A DNA stretch of 33,960 nt from a virus. The position numbers and the translations under genes were made by a program. Position 1 is the stretch's first letter; each line of letters begins with the position of its first letter. The notes below the pieces were generated by a model. The model worked only from the letters and a program-made list of their open reading frames with translations, did no database searches and was not told the origin of the DNA. Location: the IMG/VR virus record IMGVR_UViG_3300025000_000286, positions 1-33,960 of that record; one strand, written 5' to 3'. Below are positions 381 to 28,421 of the stretch, one piece after another.

Positions 381-2043
381 TTGTCCCGCCATGGAATACG
401 CCGCCGGCGTCCTGGCCGGTGAGATCGTCGCATGCAAGTGGGTGCGCCTGGCTGTCGAGCGGCACATGCGCGATCTCGAAACGGCCGAAGAGCGCGGTCT
501 CTATTTCGACGAAAACGCCGCCTGGCACATCATCGATTTCTTCCAGTTCACCCGCCACCTCAAGGGAGAGTGGGCAGGGCTGCCGATCGACCTGGAGCCG
601 TGGCAGCAGTTCTTCCTGTGGGTGGCCTTCGGCTGGATGCGGGCCGACGGCACCCGCCGCTTCCGCTTCGCCTATCTCGAGATCGCCAGAAAGAACGGCA
701 AGACCACCAAGGCCGCCGGCGTCGGTCTGTACCTCGCCTTCGCCGACGGCGAGATGGGCGCCGAGGTCTACGCCTGCGCCACCAAGAAGGACCAGGCGAA
801 GATCTGTCACGGCGCGGCGGCAAGCATGGTCAAGCTCTCCCCGCACCTGGGTGCCCACCTGGAGGTACTGAACAACAACATCAGCAACCCGCAGACGCTG
901 TCCAAGTTCGAGCCGCTCGGCCGTGACTCCGACTCGACCGACGGCCTCAACCCATCCGGCGCCGTCATGGACGAGCTGCACGCCTGGAAGACACGCGATC
1001 TCTGGGACGTTATCGAGACCGGTACCGGATCCCGCACCCAACCGATGATCATCGCCATCACCACGGCCGGCTACAACCGCCACTCTATCTGCTGGGAAAA
1101 GCACGAATACCTGTGCAAGATCCTCTCCAGGGTGATCGAGGACGACAGCTACTTCGGCATGATCTACACCCTGGATGAAGGCGACAATATTGACGACGAG
1201 TCCTGCTGGATCAAGGCCAACCCGAACCTCGGCATCTCGGTGAAGATCGACGACCTGCGCGGCGCCATCAAGCGGGCCAAGGAAAGCCCGGCGGCAATGA
1301 ACTCGGTGCTACGGCTGCGCCTCAACCAGTGGACCCAGTCGGAAACCAGGTGGCTCAATATCGACAGGTGGCGGCAGTGCGGCAACGCGATCGAGCCCTC
1401 CAGCCTGCGCGGCCGGCGCTGCTATGGCGGTCTGGATCTCTCCTCGAGCATCGATATCTCGGCCTGGATCCTGGTCTTTCCGCCGGTCGAAGACGGCGAG
1501 CCATACAAGGCGCTGTGCCGTTTCTTCGTACCCGAGGACAACATGCGCGAGCGCTCCCGCAAGGACCGGGTGCCGTATGATGTCTGGTGCCATGCGGGAT
1601 TGATCACCGACACCCCGGGCAACGTCATCGATTACGCCTGGATCATCGACCAGGTCCAGAAAGACGCCAAGGAATTCGACCTGCAGGAGATCGCTTTCGA
1701 CCGCTGGGGCGCGACGCTGATCTACCAGCAGCTGTCCGACCTCGGCATGCAGGTGGTGGAATTCGGCCAGGGCTTCGCCTCGATGAGCCCGCCGTCGAAG
1801 GAACTGGAGAAGCTGATCCTGGCCGGCAAGATCTGTCACGGCGGTAATCCGGTGCTGACCTGGATGGCGGACAACGTGGTGGTGGTCGAGGATCCATCCG
1901 GCAACATCAAGCCGGCAAAGAATCGATCGACGGAAAAGATAGACGGCATCGTTGCCTTGATCATGGCCCTTGACCGGGCGCTCCATGGCGAATCGAACAA
2001 CAGGGTTTCACGCTACGAACGAGAGGGGATCAGATCGTTATGA
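373..2043 (+). CDS. terL: Phage terminase large subunit (HK97-like, Terminase_1 family)
   Basis: This is the ATPase and nuclease of the DNA packaging motor, which docks on the portal and cuts concatemeric DNA. The 556-residue length is typical. A deviant Walker A (ARKNGKT, residues 105-111) follows the LEPWQQFFL adenine-side motif, and Walker B is AVMDE (197-201). A coupling-like segment IAITTAGYN sits near 228-235. The C-terminal RNase H-like nuclease shows acidic positions in GGLDLS (352-357), FDRWGA (442-447) and KIDGIVAL (522-529). The gene overlaps both neighbours. The HNH gene just upstream of the small subunit fits a cos-type packaging system, in which HNH and terminase act together, but no cos site was identified. 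Confidence 0.97.
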   Translation: MADCPAMEYAAGVLAGEIVACKWVRLAVERHMRDLETAEERGLYFDENAAWHIIDFFQFTRHLKGEWAGLPIDLEPWQQFFLWVAFGWMRADGTRRFRFAYLEIARKNGKTTKAAGVGLYLAFADGEMGAEVYACATKKDQAKICHGAAASMVKLSPHLGAHLEVLNNNISNPQTLSKFEPLGRDSDSTDGLNPSGAVMDELHAWKTRDLWDVIETGTGSRTQPMIIAITTAGYNRHSICWEKHEYLCKILSRVIEDDSYFGMIYTLDEGDNIDDESCWIKANPNLGISVKIDDLRGAIKRAKESPAAMNSVLRLRLNQWTQSETRWLNIDRWRQCGNAIEPSSLRGRRCYGGLDLSSSIDISAWILVFPPVEDGEPYKALCRFFVPEDNMRERSRKDRVPYDVWCHAGLITDTPGNVIDYAWIIDQVQKDAKEFDLQEIAFDRWGATLIYQQLSDLGMQVVEFGQGFASMSPPSKELEKLILAGKICHGGNPVLTWMADNVVVVEDPSGNIKPAKNRSTEKIDGIVALIMALDRALHGESNNRVSRYEREGIRSL

Positions 2044-2228
2044 GCAAGGATAAGTGGATGGAAGTGTCATCGGTGGCGCGGCGGCTGAACATCTCCGCGG
2101 CGACCGTCTACCGGCTGATCAAGCTGGGCAGCCTGCGCAGCACCAAGATGGGCGTGTCCCGCTGCCTGCGGGTGAGCGAGGCGAGCATCAAGTCTTTCGA
2201 GAAGATGCGGGCCGAGGTGGTGGAATGA
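2040..2228 (+). CDS. Small helix-turn-helix DNA-binding protein (excisionase/MerR-like, HTH_17)
   Basis: A 62-residue protein in which WMEVSSVARRLNISAATV followed by YRLIKLGSLRSTKMG matches the winged-helix fold of small excisionase-like proteins: a 'two-helix plus wing' arrangement, with basic residues in the recognition helix and wing. Its start overlaps the large terminase stop (ATGA). Such proteins bind DNA as recombination directionality factors or as transcription regulators. No integrase was recognised in this genome, so a regulatory role or a structural role near the packaging site is at least as likely as excision. It is the first gene of the cargo island between terminase and portal. 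Confidence 0.75.
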   Translation: MSKDKWMEVSSVARRLNISAATVYRLIKLGSLRSTKMGVSRCLRVSEASIKSFEKMRAEVVE

Positions 2229-3271
2229 CCATCCGAACCGGGGGAGGATGGAAACGCAAACCGACGCGGCTGTTTTCCGGCCCCTGCCCGGTCACCGGTG
2301 GGCGGCCGACGACGATGCTGCGGCGGACGTTTAACCTGATGTGCATCCGCCACCAGGAGGATTTTGACAGCTCCTGCCGGTTTATCTGCAAGGGGCGGTG
2401 GCCGCAGGCTGGGCTGGAATTGATTGATGACGTGAAAAATTTTGCATCCGAGGAGGATACCATGGCAGTACCATCGGCAATACAGGCAGGGATATGCGGG
2501 CTGTGCGGAGCGAAGAAAAAAGTGCGGAAGGTGCGGGAAAAAACCTGCTGCGCGACCTGCGAGCATATCTGGCGAGCGGCCCATGTTTCCTCGGGGCTGC
2601 TGGTCGATGCGCTCAACCAGGCGAGGGGGGAGGGATATCTGGCGGAGAAGGTTGGCGGCGGGGATCAGGTCGAGGTAAAGCGCCGGCTGTATGCGATGGA
2701 GCAAACGTATGAGAATATGCGGCTGGCCCTTGGGTGTCAAGGCGAGGAGGAGGCCCTTGAATCCGTCATCCGGTTGGTCAAAGAGCGCGATGCCGCCCTC
2801 GATGATCTGCAGCAGATCCGGTCCGCTGTTGGCCTCGAGGTCGGCAGCCCGCTGGTCGAGTATATCGAGGGCCTGGTCGGCGTCAAGGATGATGTTACCC
2901 GACGATACCTTGCCGTAAACGATGTGATCGAGAATGTGCGCGAGATGCTCGGCCTTGATGCGGAAGAGGCGATTATCGAGGAGGTGCATCAGTTGCTGCG
3001 CAATGGGAAAAAGGCTACCGATATCTGGTTCGAGACTGCCGAAATCATGGGGATCGACTGCGTCAATGCCGATCAGATACCGATCAGGGCCAGGGAGTTG
3101 ATGCAAGAGCTATCGGACTTATCGAACTTGAAGGCCGGGACAATGGTGTATCTCGAAGGAAAGGAGGGCTGCACTGAATCCCGCGATACAGCCCTCCTTG
3201 ATCTCGCTATCGATGTCCTGGCCGGCCGGATCACCGGCATCGATGCGGCGCGGATCAGCGCGTTGAGGTGA
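2225..3271 (+). CDS. Unknown protein with cysteine pairs and four ~34-residue helical repeats
   Basis: From ATG 2225 (ATGA overlap with the HTH gene, GAGGTGG upstream) the product is 348 residues. A second in-frame ATG at 2462 has a stronger GAGGAGG ribosome site and would give 269 residues, so two forms or a misjudged start are possible. Residues 91-112 contain CGLC and CCATC pairs that look like a zinc ribbon. From about residue 155 to the end there are four related units of about 34 residues, each with a hydrophobic-Gly-hydrophobic core (ALGC, AVGL, MLGL, IMGI) followed by an acidic helix. No enzyme motif is visible. The role is unknown; the layout suggests a nucleic-acid or protein binding scaffold translated together with its neighbours. 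Confidence 0.7.
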   Translation: MTIRTGGGWKRKPTRLFSGPCPVTGGRPTTMLRRTFNLMCIRHQEDFDSSCRFICKGRWPQAGLELIDDVKNFASEEDTMAVPSAIQAGICGLCGAKKKVRKVREKTCCATCEHIWRAAHVSSGLLVDALNQARGEGYLAEKVGGGDQVEVKRRLYAMEQTYENMRLALGCQGEEEALESVIRLVKERDAALDDLQQIRSAVGLEVGSPLVEYIEGLVGVKDDVTRRYLAVNDVIENVREMLGLDAEEAIIEEVHQLLRNGKKATDIWFETAEIMGIDCVNADQIPIRARELMQELSDLSNLKAGTMVYLEGKEGCTESRDTALLDLAIDVLAGRITGIDAARISALR

Positions 3272-3276
3272 TGAGG

Positions 3277-4353
3277 ATGACCCAGCCCAGCCTGTACGTG
3301 GATACACCGGTAACCGAAGACGTCACCTCGCCCGAATCGATCGCATCGATAGTCGCGGCCATCAGACAGCGTCTCCGCGCCGTCAACATCGTCTCGTTCT
3401 CCGGCGGCAAGGATAGCACTGTGACCCTGAAGCTGGTCCTCGAGGCCATGCGCGGCCTGCCGCACAAGCTCTATATCATCACCGCCGACACCGGGGTCGA
3501 GATCCCTTATTTTCAGCAGTACGTCGACCAGGTGCGGGGAGAGCTGCAGCGCTATGTCACGGCCATGCGGATCAATGCCGAGGTGGTGACGGTACGGCCG
3601 CCGCCCCATGTTTCCTTCTGGGTGTCGATATTGGGCAAGGGATACCCGGCGGCGCACATGGGTTTCCGCTGGTGCACTGGCGTGTTGAAGATCGAGCCGA
3701 TCACCAGATATATCGAGACCTTGATCACGGGTGACGATTATGCCGTTTTTGTCGGGGTGCGCACGGCGGAAAGCAAGGAGCGGGCGCGGATCTACCTGCA
3801 AAAAGACTACAAGCCAAACCACTATGCGCCGGTGCTCGACTGGACCGCCCATGATATCTGGACCTATCTGCTGGCGACGGATTGCCCCTGGGGAGATCAC
3901 AGCAAGCTGATCGAGGTGTACCGCTACTCATCGGACGAGTGCGTCTATGGCGAGAAGCAGGGTGTCTGCATCGGCAATGCCCGTTATGGCTGCTGGCCCT
4001 GTCCGCTGCAGAAGGTAGGGCAGCTGAACATGATCGCCTACCACGTCAACGACGAGCGCTATCTGCTCCTGCGGAATTTCAAGACGACACTCTCCGGCAT
4101 GGCCAACGACAGATCACTGCGCTCAGTGATCCGCCGCAACGGCGAAACCGGTGCCGGACCGTTCCTGGTGAAAATCCGCCAGCGCCTGTTTGCCGATCTC
4201 AAGAAATTGGAAAAGGAGACCGGCTGGACATTGATCTCGGGAGCGGAGGAGATCGAGATCCGGCGCTACTGGCAGGAGGAAGCGGAGATCCATAATATCT
4301 CGAACCAGCAGCGGCCGCTGCTATGGGACCTTTGCGGCGAGGTGACGGCATGA
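3277..4353 (+). CDS. PP-loop sulfur-transfer protein, PAPS reductase/DndC-like
   Basis: A PP-loop ATP pyrophosphatase-fold protein of 358 residues from ATG 3277, which lies 8 bases after GAGG; GTG 3268 and ATG 3271 are possible but badly spaced. SGGKDS at 42-47 is the pyrophosphate-binding loop. RWCTGVLK (131-138), GVRTAES (160-166) and the APVLDWTAHDIWTYL segment (184-198) are typical of the PAPS reductase/DndC branch. C133 together with C231, C239 and C242 (GNARYGCWPC) resembles the cysteine set described for the iron-sulfur cluster of DndC, the enzyme that puts sulfur on the DNA backbone in phosphorothioation. No DndA, DndD or DndE homologue is seen. Sulfate assimilation, tRNA thiolation or nucleic-acid modification remain open; DNA sulfur chemistry is the most suggestive. 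Confidence 0.85.
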   Translation: MTQPSLYVDTPVTEDVTSPESIASIVAAIRQRLRAVNIVSFSGGKDSTVTLKLVLEAMRGLPHKLYIITADTGVEIPYFQQYVDQVRGELQRYVTAMRINAEVVTVRPPPHVSFWVSILGKGYPAAHMGFRWCTGVLKIEPITRYIETLITGDDYAVFVGVRTAESKERARIYLQKDYKPNHYAPVLDWTAHDIWTYLLATDCPWGDHSKLIEVYRYSSDECVYGEKQGVCIGNARYGCWPCPLQKVGQLNMIAYHVNDERYLLLRNFKTTLSGMANDRSLRSVIRRNGETGAGPFLVKIRQRLFADLKKLEKETGWTLISGAEEIEIRRYWQEEAEIHNISNQQRPLLWDLCGEVTA

Positions 4354-4646: not shown

Positions 4647-5453
4647 ATGGAAAATTTCGACCAGGACCGCCAGGGCACCGGTACCGCCGAGTGGGCCGAG
4701 GTGACGGAAAATATCTGCAGGGGCTGCGCCAATGATTGCCTGTACTGCTATGCAGCCCACAGCGCCAACCGTTTCAAGCTGCGGCCGCGCTCGGAGTGGC
4801 ATGTCGAGGAGTTGACCAAGCGGGCGGAGATGCGGTCCTATCCAGCCCGGGGCGGGGTGGTCATGTTCCCGTCCTCGCACGATATCACGCTCTTCAATCT
4901 CGAGGCCTATGTCCGGGTCGCCCGGTTGATCCTGGCCGCCGGTAACCGCCTGCTGATCGTCAGCAAGCCGCGACTGGAGTGCGTGGAAAGGATGATCAAG
5001 GAGTTTGAGCCATACCGGAAGCAGATTCTTTTCCGCTTTACCATGGGCACGGTGCAGCGCAATGTCTCGGCTTTATGGGAACCAAGCGCTCCCTCTCCCC
5101 AAGAGCGAAGGGGATGTCTGGAGCTGGCATACAGCAACGGTTTTTCAACCTCTGTTTCTATCGAGCCGATGCTTGAAGGCTACCAGATGACGGAGATCCT
5201 GATCGAATGGGTTCGGCCGTTTGTCTCGCAAACCATTTGGATAGGGAAGATGAACAAGCCTCAGCTGAGGGTCCCGAAAGAATACTCGTACCTGGTCGAC
5301 GCCATTCTCAAACAGCAGAGTGATGACCAAATCATGAGCCTCTACGAGTGGTTCAAGGATGACCCGCAAATCCGCTGGAAGGACAGCATCAAGGTCGTGC
5401 TGGAGCGGTGGCGGCTGTTCGAGGCGAAAGAGGCGAATGACCTGGCGGAATAA
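4647..5453 (+). CDS. Radical SAM protein
   Basis: A 268-residue protein with CRGCANDCLYCY at residues 24-35, which contains the radical SAM CxxxCxxC signature (C27, C31, C34) for a 4Fe-4S cluster that cleaves S-adenosylmethionine. C24 is an extra cysteine directly before it. Downstream, VVMFPSSHD, LLIVSKPR, LFRFTMGT and the TSVSIEPMLEG segment fit the strands of the (beta/alpha)6 partial barrel. The start at ATG 4647 has GAGG six bases upstream. The C-terminus ends in a charged helix. The substrate cannot be read from the sequence. It lies in the same transcription unit as the DndC-like protein, so the two may act on the same nucleic-acid or small-molecule target; this is inference. Confidence 0.88.
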   Translation: MENFDQDRQGTGTAEWAEVTENICRGCANDCLYCYAAHSANRFKLRPRSEWHVEELTKRAEMRSYPARGGVVMFPSSHDITLFNLEAYVRVARLILAAGNRLLIVSKPRLECVERMIKEFEPYRKQILFRFTMGTVQRNVSALWEPSAPSPQERRGCLELAYSNGFSTSVSIEPMLEGYQMTEILIEWVRPFVSQTIWIGKMNKPQLRVPKEYSYLVDAILKQQSDDQIMSLYEWFKDDPQIRWKDSIKVVLERWRLFEAKEANDLAE

Positions 5454-27091: not shown

Positions 27092-27106
27092 ACAGTGGGG
27101 CTTTTG

Positions 27107-27700
27107 ATGACAAAATCACCGCAATATATTTCCGCGTTTCACAAGACCATGGATCACGAAGGTTGGAATAAACTGACGAACAACCCGCGCGATCCGGGCA
27201 AAGAGACCTTCTCGGGGATATCCCGGGTCTATTGGCCGACCTCTCCGGTATGGGATCTGCTCGCTCGCCTGCAGCAAAACCCGACTGATCGTGCCCTGCT
27301 TAACGCCACGATGGACGCGGTAGAGGATTTCTATCTGGTACAGTTCTGGCTGCCTATCCAGGGCGATACGATCGCTGCCCTGTCCGTGCAGGTCGCCGAA
27401 GAGACCTTCGACACGTGCGTCAACGTCGGCCTCGGCCGAGGCGGGGAATACCTGCAGGAGGCTTTGAACCTGCTGAACGTCAACGGCCGGATTTATCCGG
27501 ATCTGCTGCTCGATGGCAAGATCGGCCCGAAGACGGTCGCCACCCTCCGGCGCTACCTCGATTCCCGGCCGCCGTCCCGCGATGCCGCCGAGGCCCGCTT
27601 ACTGCGGGTGATGAATTGCCTGCAGGGCGGCCTGTACATCGATCGTATGCGGAAATACCCCGAACGCGAGGAGTTCCGCGGCTGGTTCGATCGGATTTAA
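27107..27700 (+). CDS. Endolysin: GH108-type muramidase with peptidoglycan-binding domain
   Basis: A 197-residue enzyme that cuts the glycan backbone of peptidoglycan. DHEGWNKLTNNPRDPGKETFSGISRVYWP (residues 16-44) corresponds to the GH108 signature HEGGYxNDPxDPGGxTxxGI, with Glu18 as the expected catalytic residue. The second half has the matching C-terminal peptidoglycan-binding domain (DTCVNVGLGRGGEYLQ, and DGKIGPKTVATL near 141). There is no signal peptide, so it depends on a holin. Start ATG 27107 has GTGGGG six bases upstream. It is the last late gene. Confidence 0.9.
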   Translation: MTKSPQYISAFHKTMDHEGWNKLTNNPRDPGKETFSGISRVYWPTSPVWDLLARLQQNPTDRALLNATMDAVEDFYLVQFWLPIQGDTIAALSVQVAEETFDTCVNVGLGRGGEYLQEALNLLNVNGRIYPDLLLDGKIGPKTVATLRRYLDSRPPSRDAAEARLLRVMNCLQGGLYIDRMRKYPEREEFRGWFDRI

Positions 27701-27743: not shown

Positions 27744-27773
27744 TTGACAGCCCCGGCCTGACTGGTGTACAGT
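27744..27773 (+). promoter_or_regulatory. Putative sigma70 promoter after the endolysin gene
   Basis: TTGACA (27744-27749), an 18-base spacer, then TACAGT (27768-27773) is a good sigma70-type pair. It has no protein-coding gene downstream on the + strand; the first thing after it is the inverted repeat at 27801, a tRNA-like stretch and a terminator, so it would make a short RNA of about 180 bases. Confidence 0.55.
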
Positions 27774-27800
27774 CGCCGACACATTTGACGCTCGACCAAT

Positions 27801-27820
27801 GTACAAGGCCAGCCTTGTAC
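27801..27820. promoter_or_regulatory. Perfect 9-bp inverted repeat (GTACAAGGC / GCCTTGTAC)
   Basis: GTACAAGGC at 27801-27809 and GCCTTGTAC at 27812-27820 are separated by two bases. The same GTACAAGG word recurs at 27970 and, inverted, at 28036. It could be an operator for a phage regulator or a recombinase arm site, or a hairpin at the 5' end of the putative short RNA. Confidence 0.6.
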
Positions 27821-27875
27821 GGCAAAAACAACAAAATTTGCCGCAAATTCAGAAACATTGGAAGGGGGTCCGTTA

Positions 27876-27905
27876 TCCTCGGTAGCTCAGTCGGTAGAGC
27901 GGGCG
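27876..27905 (+). ncRNA. tRNA 5'-half-like stretch (acceptor, D-arm)
   Basis: TCCTCGG, TA, GCTC, AGTCGGTA, GAGC (27876-27900) is the canonical 5' acceptor strand and D-arm of a bacterial tRNA and resembles tRNA-Asn; GGGCG continues the match for a few bases. Then the sequence diverges: no anticodon arm, variable loop, T-arm or 3' acceptor follows, so this is not a functional tRNA. It may be the attP-like trace of a tRNA-associated attachment site, or part of a short RNA between the promoter at 27744 and the terminator at 27926. Confidence 0.65.
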
Positions 27906-27925
27906 AGCGTGAAAAAACGATAAAA

Positions 27926-27958
27926 GGAGATAAGCCCTCGGGTTTATCTCCTTTTTTT
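27926..27958. terminator. Strong bidirectional intrinsic terminator
   Basis: GGAGATAAGCC (27926-27936) pairs with GGTTTATCTCC (27941-27951), with one G-T wobble, and is followed by seven T on the + strand. On the other side the run AAAAAACGATAAAA gives a T-rich tail for the - strand. It separates the late + strand genes from the - strand repressor, and would end both. Confidence 0.9.
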
Positions 27959-27967
27959 ATTGTTTTT

Positions 27968-28044
27968 GCGTACAAGGCTTTTTTCGGAAAATCTGAAAAA
28001 CGCGGATAATGCTTTGAATATATTGCTATATTTTTCTTGTACGC
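27968..28044. repeat. Distant inverted repeat GCGTACAAG / CTTGTACGC
   Basis: GCGTACAAG (27968-27976) and CTTGTACGC (28036-28044) match perfectly across 59 AT-rich bases that include the end of the repressor gene. It shares the GTACAAG core with the palindrome at 27801. Its function is unknown; a DNA-looping operator or recombination arm sites are possible. Confidence 0.5.
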
Positions 28045-28421
28045 ATGACGGTTATTTTTGCCTTCCTGGTCCTCCTGGTCAGGCTGATCCTGGCCTCGGT
28101 TTCCTGCCTGGCCTGCTGCTCTTTGGTTTTGCTTGCTTTTTTCCTGGTCGGTCCAGGTTCAATGGTCATAACGATTTTCTGCTCTGATTTGTATGTTTTC
28201 TGCTCTTCGTCACCAATCAGCATTTCCCCTGTGCCGGTAAGTAGAAATTTCCGGTTTATCTTAAATGCCAATTCAAGAGATCTGAGTACCGGTTCGCTAG
28301 GCACTAAATTTCTCCTTTCGATATCAGATACATATCCTCCAGTTATTCCAATTCTATTGGCAAAATCAGCCTGATTCAGGCCAAGGTGTTTTCTTATTTT
28401 TTTAAGATTTTCGCCTATCAT
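28026..28421 (-). CDS. XRE-family repressor (CI-like)
   Basis: A 131-residue protein with an N-terminal helix-turn-helix: ENLKKIRKHLGLNQADFANRIG, followed by ITGGYVSDIERRNLVPSEP. FLLTGTGEMLIGDEEQ is the usual end of short XRE repressors. The C-terminus is basic (KKASKTKEQQARQETEARISL) and has no LexA-like protease domain, so classical RecA-triggered self-cleavage is unlikely. It is the only confident - strand gene and is divergent from a Ner-like gene 48 bases away. It likely silences the early + strand genes. Confidence 0.88.
   Translation of the reverse strand: MIGENLKKIRKHLGLNQADFANRIGITGGYVSDIERRNLVPSEPVLRSLELAFKINRKFLLTGTGEMLIGDEEQKTYKSEQKIVMTIEPGPTRKKASKTKEQQARQETEARISLTRRTRKAKITVMRTRKI

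Follow-up and report, generated by a model that had tools for sequence, protein, structure and literature searches.

Here we report that a short non-coding unit of viral DNA, in which a promoter, the 5' half of a tRNA gene and a terminator follow one another, is best explained as the attP of a temperate lineage whose target is the 5' half of the tRNA-Asn(GUU) gene and which integrates by means of a large serine recombinase (LSR), a reading to which we assign, from sequence comparison, a probability of about 0.87. The unit lies in a 33,960-base IMG/VR record, analyzed over its whole length and referred to here as the window, in which terminase, tail, lysis, HTH repressor, Cro-like and replication genes are annotated. 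Within this reading, we infer that an LSR performs the recombination, that the phage promoter is active and that the phage of the window descends from an LSR-bearing phage. A preliminary description of the same DNA had left the choice between a tRNA-mimicking decoy RNA and the identity block of a tRNA-associated attP; attL and attR sites in related prophages speak strongly for the latter. What that description had not foreseen was a serine recombinase as the integrase of the family, nor its loss or absence in the phage of the window.

In the proposed mechanism, recombination would take place inside the first 25-26 bp shared by phage and host (acceptor 5' strand and D-arm), and integration at the 5' side of the gene would separate tRNA-Asn from its own promoter. 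At attR, the phage promoter, leader and tRNA 5' half would be joined to the host 3' half, and an intact tRNA-Asn would be transcribed; at attL, the host promoter and the cut-off 5' half would be joined to the phage terminator, which would halt the useless host transcript before the prophage. The host would retain a working tRNA-Asn because the cassette brings a spare 5' half with its own promoter. The crossover probably falls in the D-loop, since the D-arm holds the dyad GCTC-AGTCGGTA-GAGC and the right arm of the attP continues this dyad (CGAG against CTCG in the acceptor); a GAGCnnnCGA-type symmetry around the D-loop was also noted by eye in the aligned sites. LSRs usually require just a short common core, so that 25-26 bp of identity exceeds what the reaction itself needs, a point that counts against this mechanism; we read the length as one kept for rebuilding the gene.

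The putative attP cassette

The cassette begins just 3' of an endolysin gene (27095-27700, + strand; Glyco_hydro_108 and PG_binding_3, by Pfam and PHROG) with the promoter TTGACA-18-TACAGT (27744-27773, + strand), followed by a GC-rich stretch, CGCCGACA, that resembles the sequence after tRNA promoters. By consensus alone this promoter is at chance level (1 found against 1.3 expected), and relatives have stronger -10 hexamers than this one (TACAGT, spacer 18); the sigma70 promoter originally described is nevertheless upheld, as its hexamers are identical in a related contig, L199, and its counterparts are strong in L318 and in two attR sites. The 102-nt leader that follows (27774-27875, + strand) contains the previously noted 9-bp palindrome, found as the inverted repeat GTACAAGGCCAGCCTTGTAC at 27801-27820, with 9-bp arms GTACAAGGC-CA-GCCTTGTAC.

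The leader gives way to the first 25 nt of tRNA-Asn(GUU), TCCTCGGTAGCTCAGTCGGTAGAGC (27876-27900, + strand), which comprise the acceptor 5' strand and D-arm, become 26 nt when the A at 27875 is counted, and have an expectation of 0 in shuffles. An Asn-like tRNA match of about 30 bases had been proposed here; a 5' piece of tRNA-Asn it is, and only the length needs correction, the true core being 25-26 nt. The match does end before the anticodon, as had been said, the bases past 26 being phage arm. This right arm, GGGCGAGCGTGAAAAAACGAT (27901-27921, + strand), shows the pattern G...GA.C...AAAA, invariant in the seven members of the family, and is followed by the strong terminator of the preliminary description, an intrinsic terminator (27922-27958, + strand) with a 15-pair stem at 27922-27955 that may act in both directions, since A- and T-tracts flank the stem. 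The fold of 27781-27962 lies 6.2 sd below shuffles, mostly due to this terminator. The window as a whole contains no complete tRNA and no Rfam match.

Between the terminator and the next gene, a segment at 27968-28044 is bounded by the inverted repeat GCGTACAAG / CTTGTACGC; it is almost identical in L199, and G144, a Desulfobulbia genome, has a similar repeat pair. The next gene encodes the HTH repressor (28026-28421, - strand), with its stop codon 126 bp from the tRNA core. The motif GTACAAG is present in four copies within 242 bp around the attP and in one copy elsewhere in the window; the pair at the ends of 27968-28044 forms an inverted repeat kept in L199, and it is possible that this pair acts as an operator or as a recombination accessory site. 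The GTACAAG inverted repeat of the leader was likewise considered as a conserved part and was rejected, being degenerate in L199.

Origin of the tRNA piece

In a scan of 84,980 genomes, the 25-mer at 27876-27900 matches at least 114 stretches; among the matches inspected, the reading continues into the GTT anticodon of tRNA-Asn, with the exception of a few at contig ends and one split by a group I intron. Bearers of these tRNA-Asn(GUU) genes among the matches inspected include Desulfobulbaceae, sulfur-oxidising gammaproteobacteria, Selenomonadaceae, Brevibacillus and others. The identity block shared with the host gene consists of 25-26 bp of tRNA-Asn and ends inside the gene. A comparison with host tRNA-Asn had been recommended as a route to the attB, and it proved informative: the same 5' block is present in host genes, and both prophage ends are found in two genomes, G163 and G144. 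The 84,980 genomes contain no exact copy of a 31-mer that extends into the anticodon stem, because the sequence from base 26 onward is phage arm, and an exact search with the 26-mer was likewise without match; the conclusion that no host exists was rejected on the same ground, the bases past 26 belonging to the phage arm. Separately, a tRNA-Asn broken after the start of the anticodon in a bacterial genome (L196:6600-6950, - strand) was considered as an att site and discarded, the break being a group I intron in the anticodon loop (Rfam RF00028, 60 bits).

Related sites and prophage ends

Of the nine matches to the 25-mer among viral contigs, seven lie in tRNA-Asn-like genes that are complete, and the other two, L198 and L199, are cut short as in the window; a search with the right-arm pattern adds L318 and recovers G050. 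Seven members carry a truncated tRNA-Asn followed by a terminator, namely the window, L198/L289, L199, L300/G050, L318, G144 and G163, where L198 is the locus on the whole contig L289 and L300 the locus on contig G050. L199, which is not the same phage as the window, is 94% identical to it over 312 bp spanning the promoter, tRNA half, terminator and repressor end; the promoter hexamers, 25-nt core and terminator are kept, and the differences lie mainly in the leader. A search with the DUF2303 protein returned no relatives.

In an alignment of the common features of nine sites (attP, attL and attR), the core comprises nucleotides 1-25 of tRNA-Asn, with variants in L318 (TCCCCAG for TCCTCGG) and in G050 and G144, where position 17 is T instead of C. 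Every attP and every attR has a TTGACA promoter with its -10 at 102-115 nt 5' of the core, with strong counterparts in the G163 attR (TTGACA-17-TATATT), the G144 attR (TTGACA-17-TATTAT) and the L318 attP (TTGACA-17-TATAAG); in every attP and every attL, a strong terminator hairpin begins about 20-25 nt past the core. Two-sided changes with pairing kept are found in 8 of the 15 terminator pairs, a count that none of 500 shuffles reaches. The leader is conserved no further than L199 and is completely different in G163, G144 and L318; its inverted repeat is likewise not kept across relatives. A comparison of structure against sequence conservation in related phages, also recommended at the outset, is therefore answered in two parts: the pairing of the terminator covaries, and the leader is not conserved.

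The L289 recombinase, used as a query against 257 Desulfobulbia genomes, led to G144 and G163. At the G163 attL, the truncated half (3410248-3410272) has a host promoter on its 5' side and the phage terminator and recombinase on its 3' side; at the attR, 38.9 kb away, the second copy of the core (3371313-3371337) belongs to an intact tRNA-Asn called by ARAGORN and is preceded by the TTGACA-17 promoter and by a phage gene that, from its translation, is apparently of lysis type. A pattern for the tRNA-Asn 3' half matches this gene and nothing else in that genome, and exactly one match to the pattern was found in each of the five genomes tested. The attL and attR of G144 are both found, but on different contigs; as read from the sequence, its attR runs from phage lysis genes through the promoter and the intact tRNA-Asn to an apparent host tRNA-Pro. 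Both relatives, G163 and G144, thus have a restored tRNA at one end and the displaced fragment at the other. The attL of G050 adjoins a gene that reads as a host pyruvate kinase. When the window arm is joined in silico to a Desulforhopalus 3' half, ARAGORN recognizes a tRNA-Asn in the virtual attR and none in the virtual attL. In the 257 Desulfobulbia genomes, no prophage with the exact attP of the window was found, the right-arm pattern detects an integrated copy in G144 alone, and the best identity to the window's TerL is 64%.

A putative serine integrase in relatives

In L289, G050 and L318, the tRNA half and terminator adjoin an LSR gene on the opposite strand, and in each of the five LSR loci (L289, G050, L318, G144 and G163) the distance between the LSR stop codon and the tRNA core is 79-134 bp. 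The L289 LSR is a protein of 491 aa with Resolvase (PF00239) and Zn-ribbon (PF13408) domains, PF07508 not being reported at E 0.001; the LSRs of the related loci are 46-67% identical to it. G144 also has a second, N-terminal-only LSR fragment (C7:129786-130208, - strand; locus L312), 72% identical to L289 and ~1.1 kb from the full LSR.

Profiles of tyrosine (PF00589) and serine recombinases find no match in the window, which counts against the main reading, as does the lack of a match to its exact attP among prophages of the 257 Desulfobulbia genomes; we also looked there for an LSR remnant and found none. Where relatives have the LSR gene, the window has its repressor gene, 126 bp from the core. 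That this repressor is a truncated copy of the repressor of LSR phages was considered and rejected; it has no significant match to those repressors, and a deletion event is therefore not proven. The place itself appears to be the integration module of this phage group, since G003, whose TerL is 90% identical to that of the window, carries an apparent tRNA-Arg 3' half next to a tyrosine integrase near the position of the window site, and G004 and L303 carry apparent tRNA 3' halves in the same part of the genome, in G004 with a tyrosine integrase; the window would therefore have the attP minus the enzyme. The breaks in several related contigs fall between the HNH and terminase genes, a pattern expected of cos ends, which makes the window record look nearly complete; there remains a small chance that an integrase gene was lost at the record ends. 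A neighbouring integrase gene is the usual arrangement for a tRNA-gene attP, though a DNA site can serve as an attP without one. With the integrase gene absent, the attP of the window would be either a relic or served by an integrase in trans.

The first of these, an attP by descent that is now a dead relic after integrase deletion and useless in the phage of the window, is a variant of the main reading to which we give somewhat less than even odds. It would account for the missing integrase and for the repressor gene in the LSR position, and the last codons of the repressor (MRTRKI) overlap the GTACAAG-bounded flank that in G144 separates terminator and LSR. However, the preservation of promoter hexamers, 25-nt core and terminator in L199, a different phage with changes mainly in the leader, argues against a relic, as does the pairing of a repressor with a Cro-like gene, which points to a lysogenic cycle. 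A wider proposal is that the LSR clade uses the tRNA-Asn D-arm as its attB, that its cassettes of promoter, 5' half and terminator take over transcription of the only tRNA-Asn gene of the host, and that integrase-less phages like that of the window enter via the integrase of a related resident prophage; taken as a whole, we regard this proposal as unlikely.

Alternatives to an attachment site

Far less probable is that the unit encodes a functional RNA of ~180 nt that mimics the tRNA-Asn 5' half and serves as a decoy target of RNase P, a synthetase or a defence nuclease that cuts tRNA. Such an RNA would agree with a non-coding unit bracketed by promoter and terminator, with folding well below shuffles and with the identical tRNA core of L199, yet the fold is mainly terminator, the leader is wholly different in G163, G144 and L318 and, without a 3' half, the acceptor stem for RNase P or synthetase cannot be completed; in lysogens, moreover, the pieces divide between attL and attR, so that no such RNA would arise from one locus. 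The decoy of the preliminary description is thus left without support, because the conserved pieces (promoter, core and terminator) are each explained by integration and the leader with its inverted repeat is not kept. That the unit is a phage-borne tRNA gene in decay, cut short by chance, as the full tRNA-Asn genes of some phages might suggest, has a negligible probability given the same truncation boundary and terminator in seven members at the integration module, with attL and attR partners.

Relation to known integration systems

Bxb1, phiC31 and TP901-1 are large serine integrases whose attP adjoins the int gene, as in the relatives described here, and systems of this type have very short cores; their known targets are protein genes or intergenic sites, with no tRNA gene among them. 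Tyrosine integrases alone were known to target tRNA genes in the Islander survey of 2015 (PMC4383910). As in the tyrosine attP sites of that survey (PMC4383910), an incoming tRNA fragment would restore the target and a displaced fragment mark the other end, whereas the present site differs in that the adjacent gene in relatives is an LSR, in that replacement would affect the 5' half, and in that the cassette includes a promoter and a terminator. The tyrosine type of tRNA attP, with a recombinase gene and a tRNA 3' half, is represented by G003 and G004; the window has a 5' half and no PF00589 match.

Replacement of a 5' end does have precedents. Those parts of the report on Mycobacterium abscessus MabA1 prophages that we draw on describe an unusual restoration of the tRNA-Met 5' end, like the present site in that the 5' end of a tRNA gene is reconstructed by the prophage, and describe no promoter-terminator cassette; we take MabA1 as tyrosine because it is absent from the serine-integrase clusters listed there (MabI, MabJ) (PMC8092301). 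For M. abscessus prophages, tRNA attB sites have been described for tyrosine systems (PMC10654092). The dusA islands similarly insert at the 5' end of a gene and replace it, with putative -10/-35 elements upstream afterwards, but their target is protein-coding and their integrase belongs to another family (PMC4482086).

None of the open-access papers searched describes a serine integrase that uses a tRNA gene, subscription papers and the TIGER/Islander database lying outside the search. The use of a tRNA gene by an LSR, and its use by way of the 5' half, for which one mycobacterial prophage cluster is the precedent, both look new in that literature. Where DNA is to be inserted one way, serine integrases are a favoured tool, and a group of them with a conserved tRNA target would offer landing sites that can be predicted in many bacteria, besides extending the picture drawn by the island survey. 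Furthermore, a viral promoter in charge of an essential host tRNA would provide a clean test of prophage insulation and of the replacement of host transcription.

Two further loci were noted in passing. Between the terminase and portal genes, the window carries a PAPS-reductase-domain gene (3268-4353), to which nothing matched in the close relatives under comparison, and a radical SAM gene (4647-5453). In L199, inspection by eye of 1540-2920 (- strand) reveals an RT-like ORF and two near-repeats differing mainly at A, beside a tail gene, which together look like a diversity-generating retroelement.
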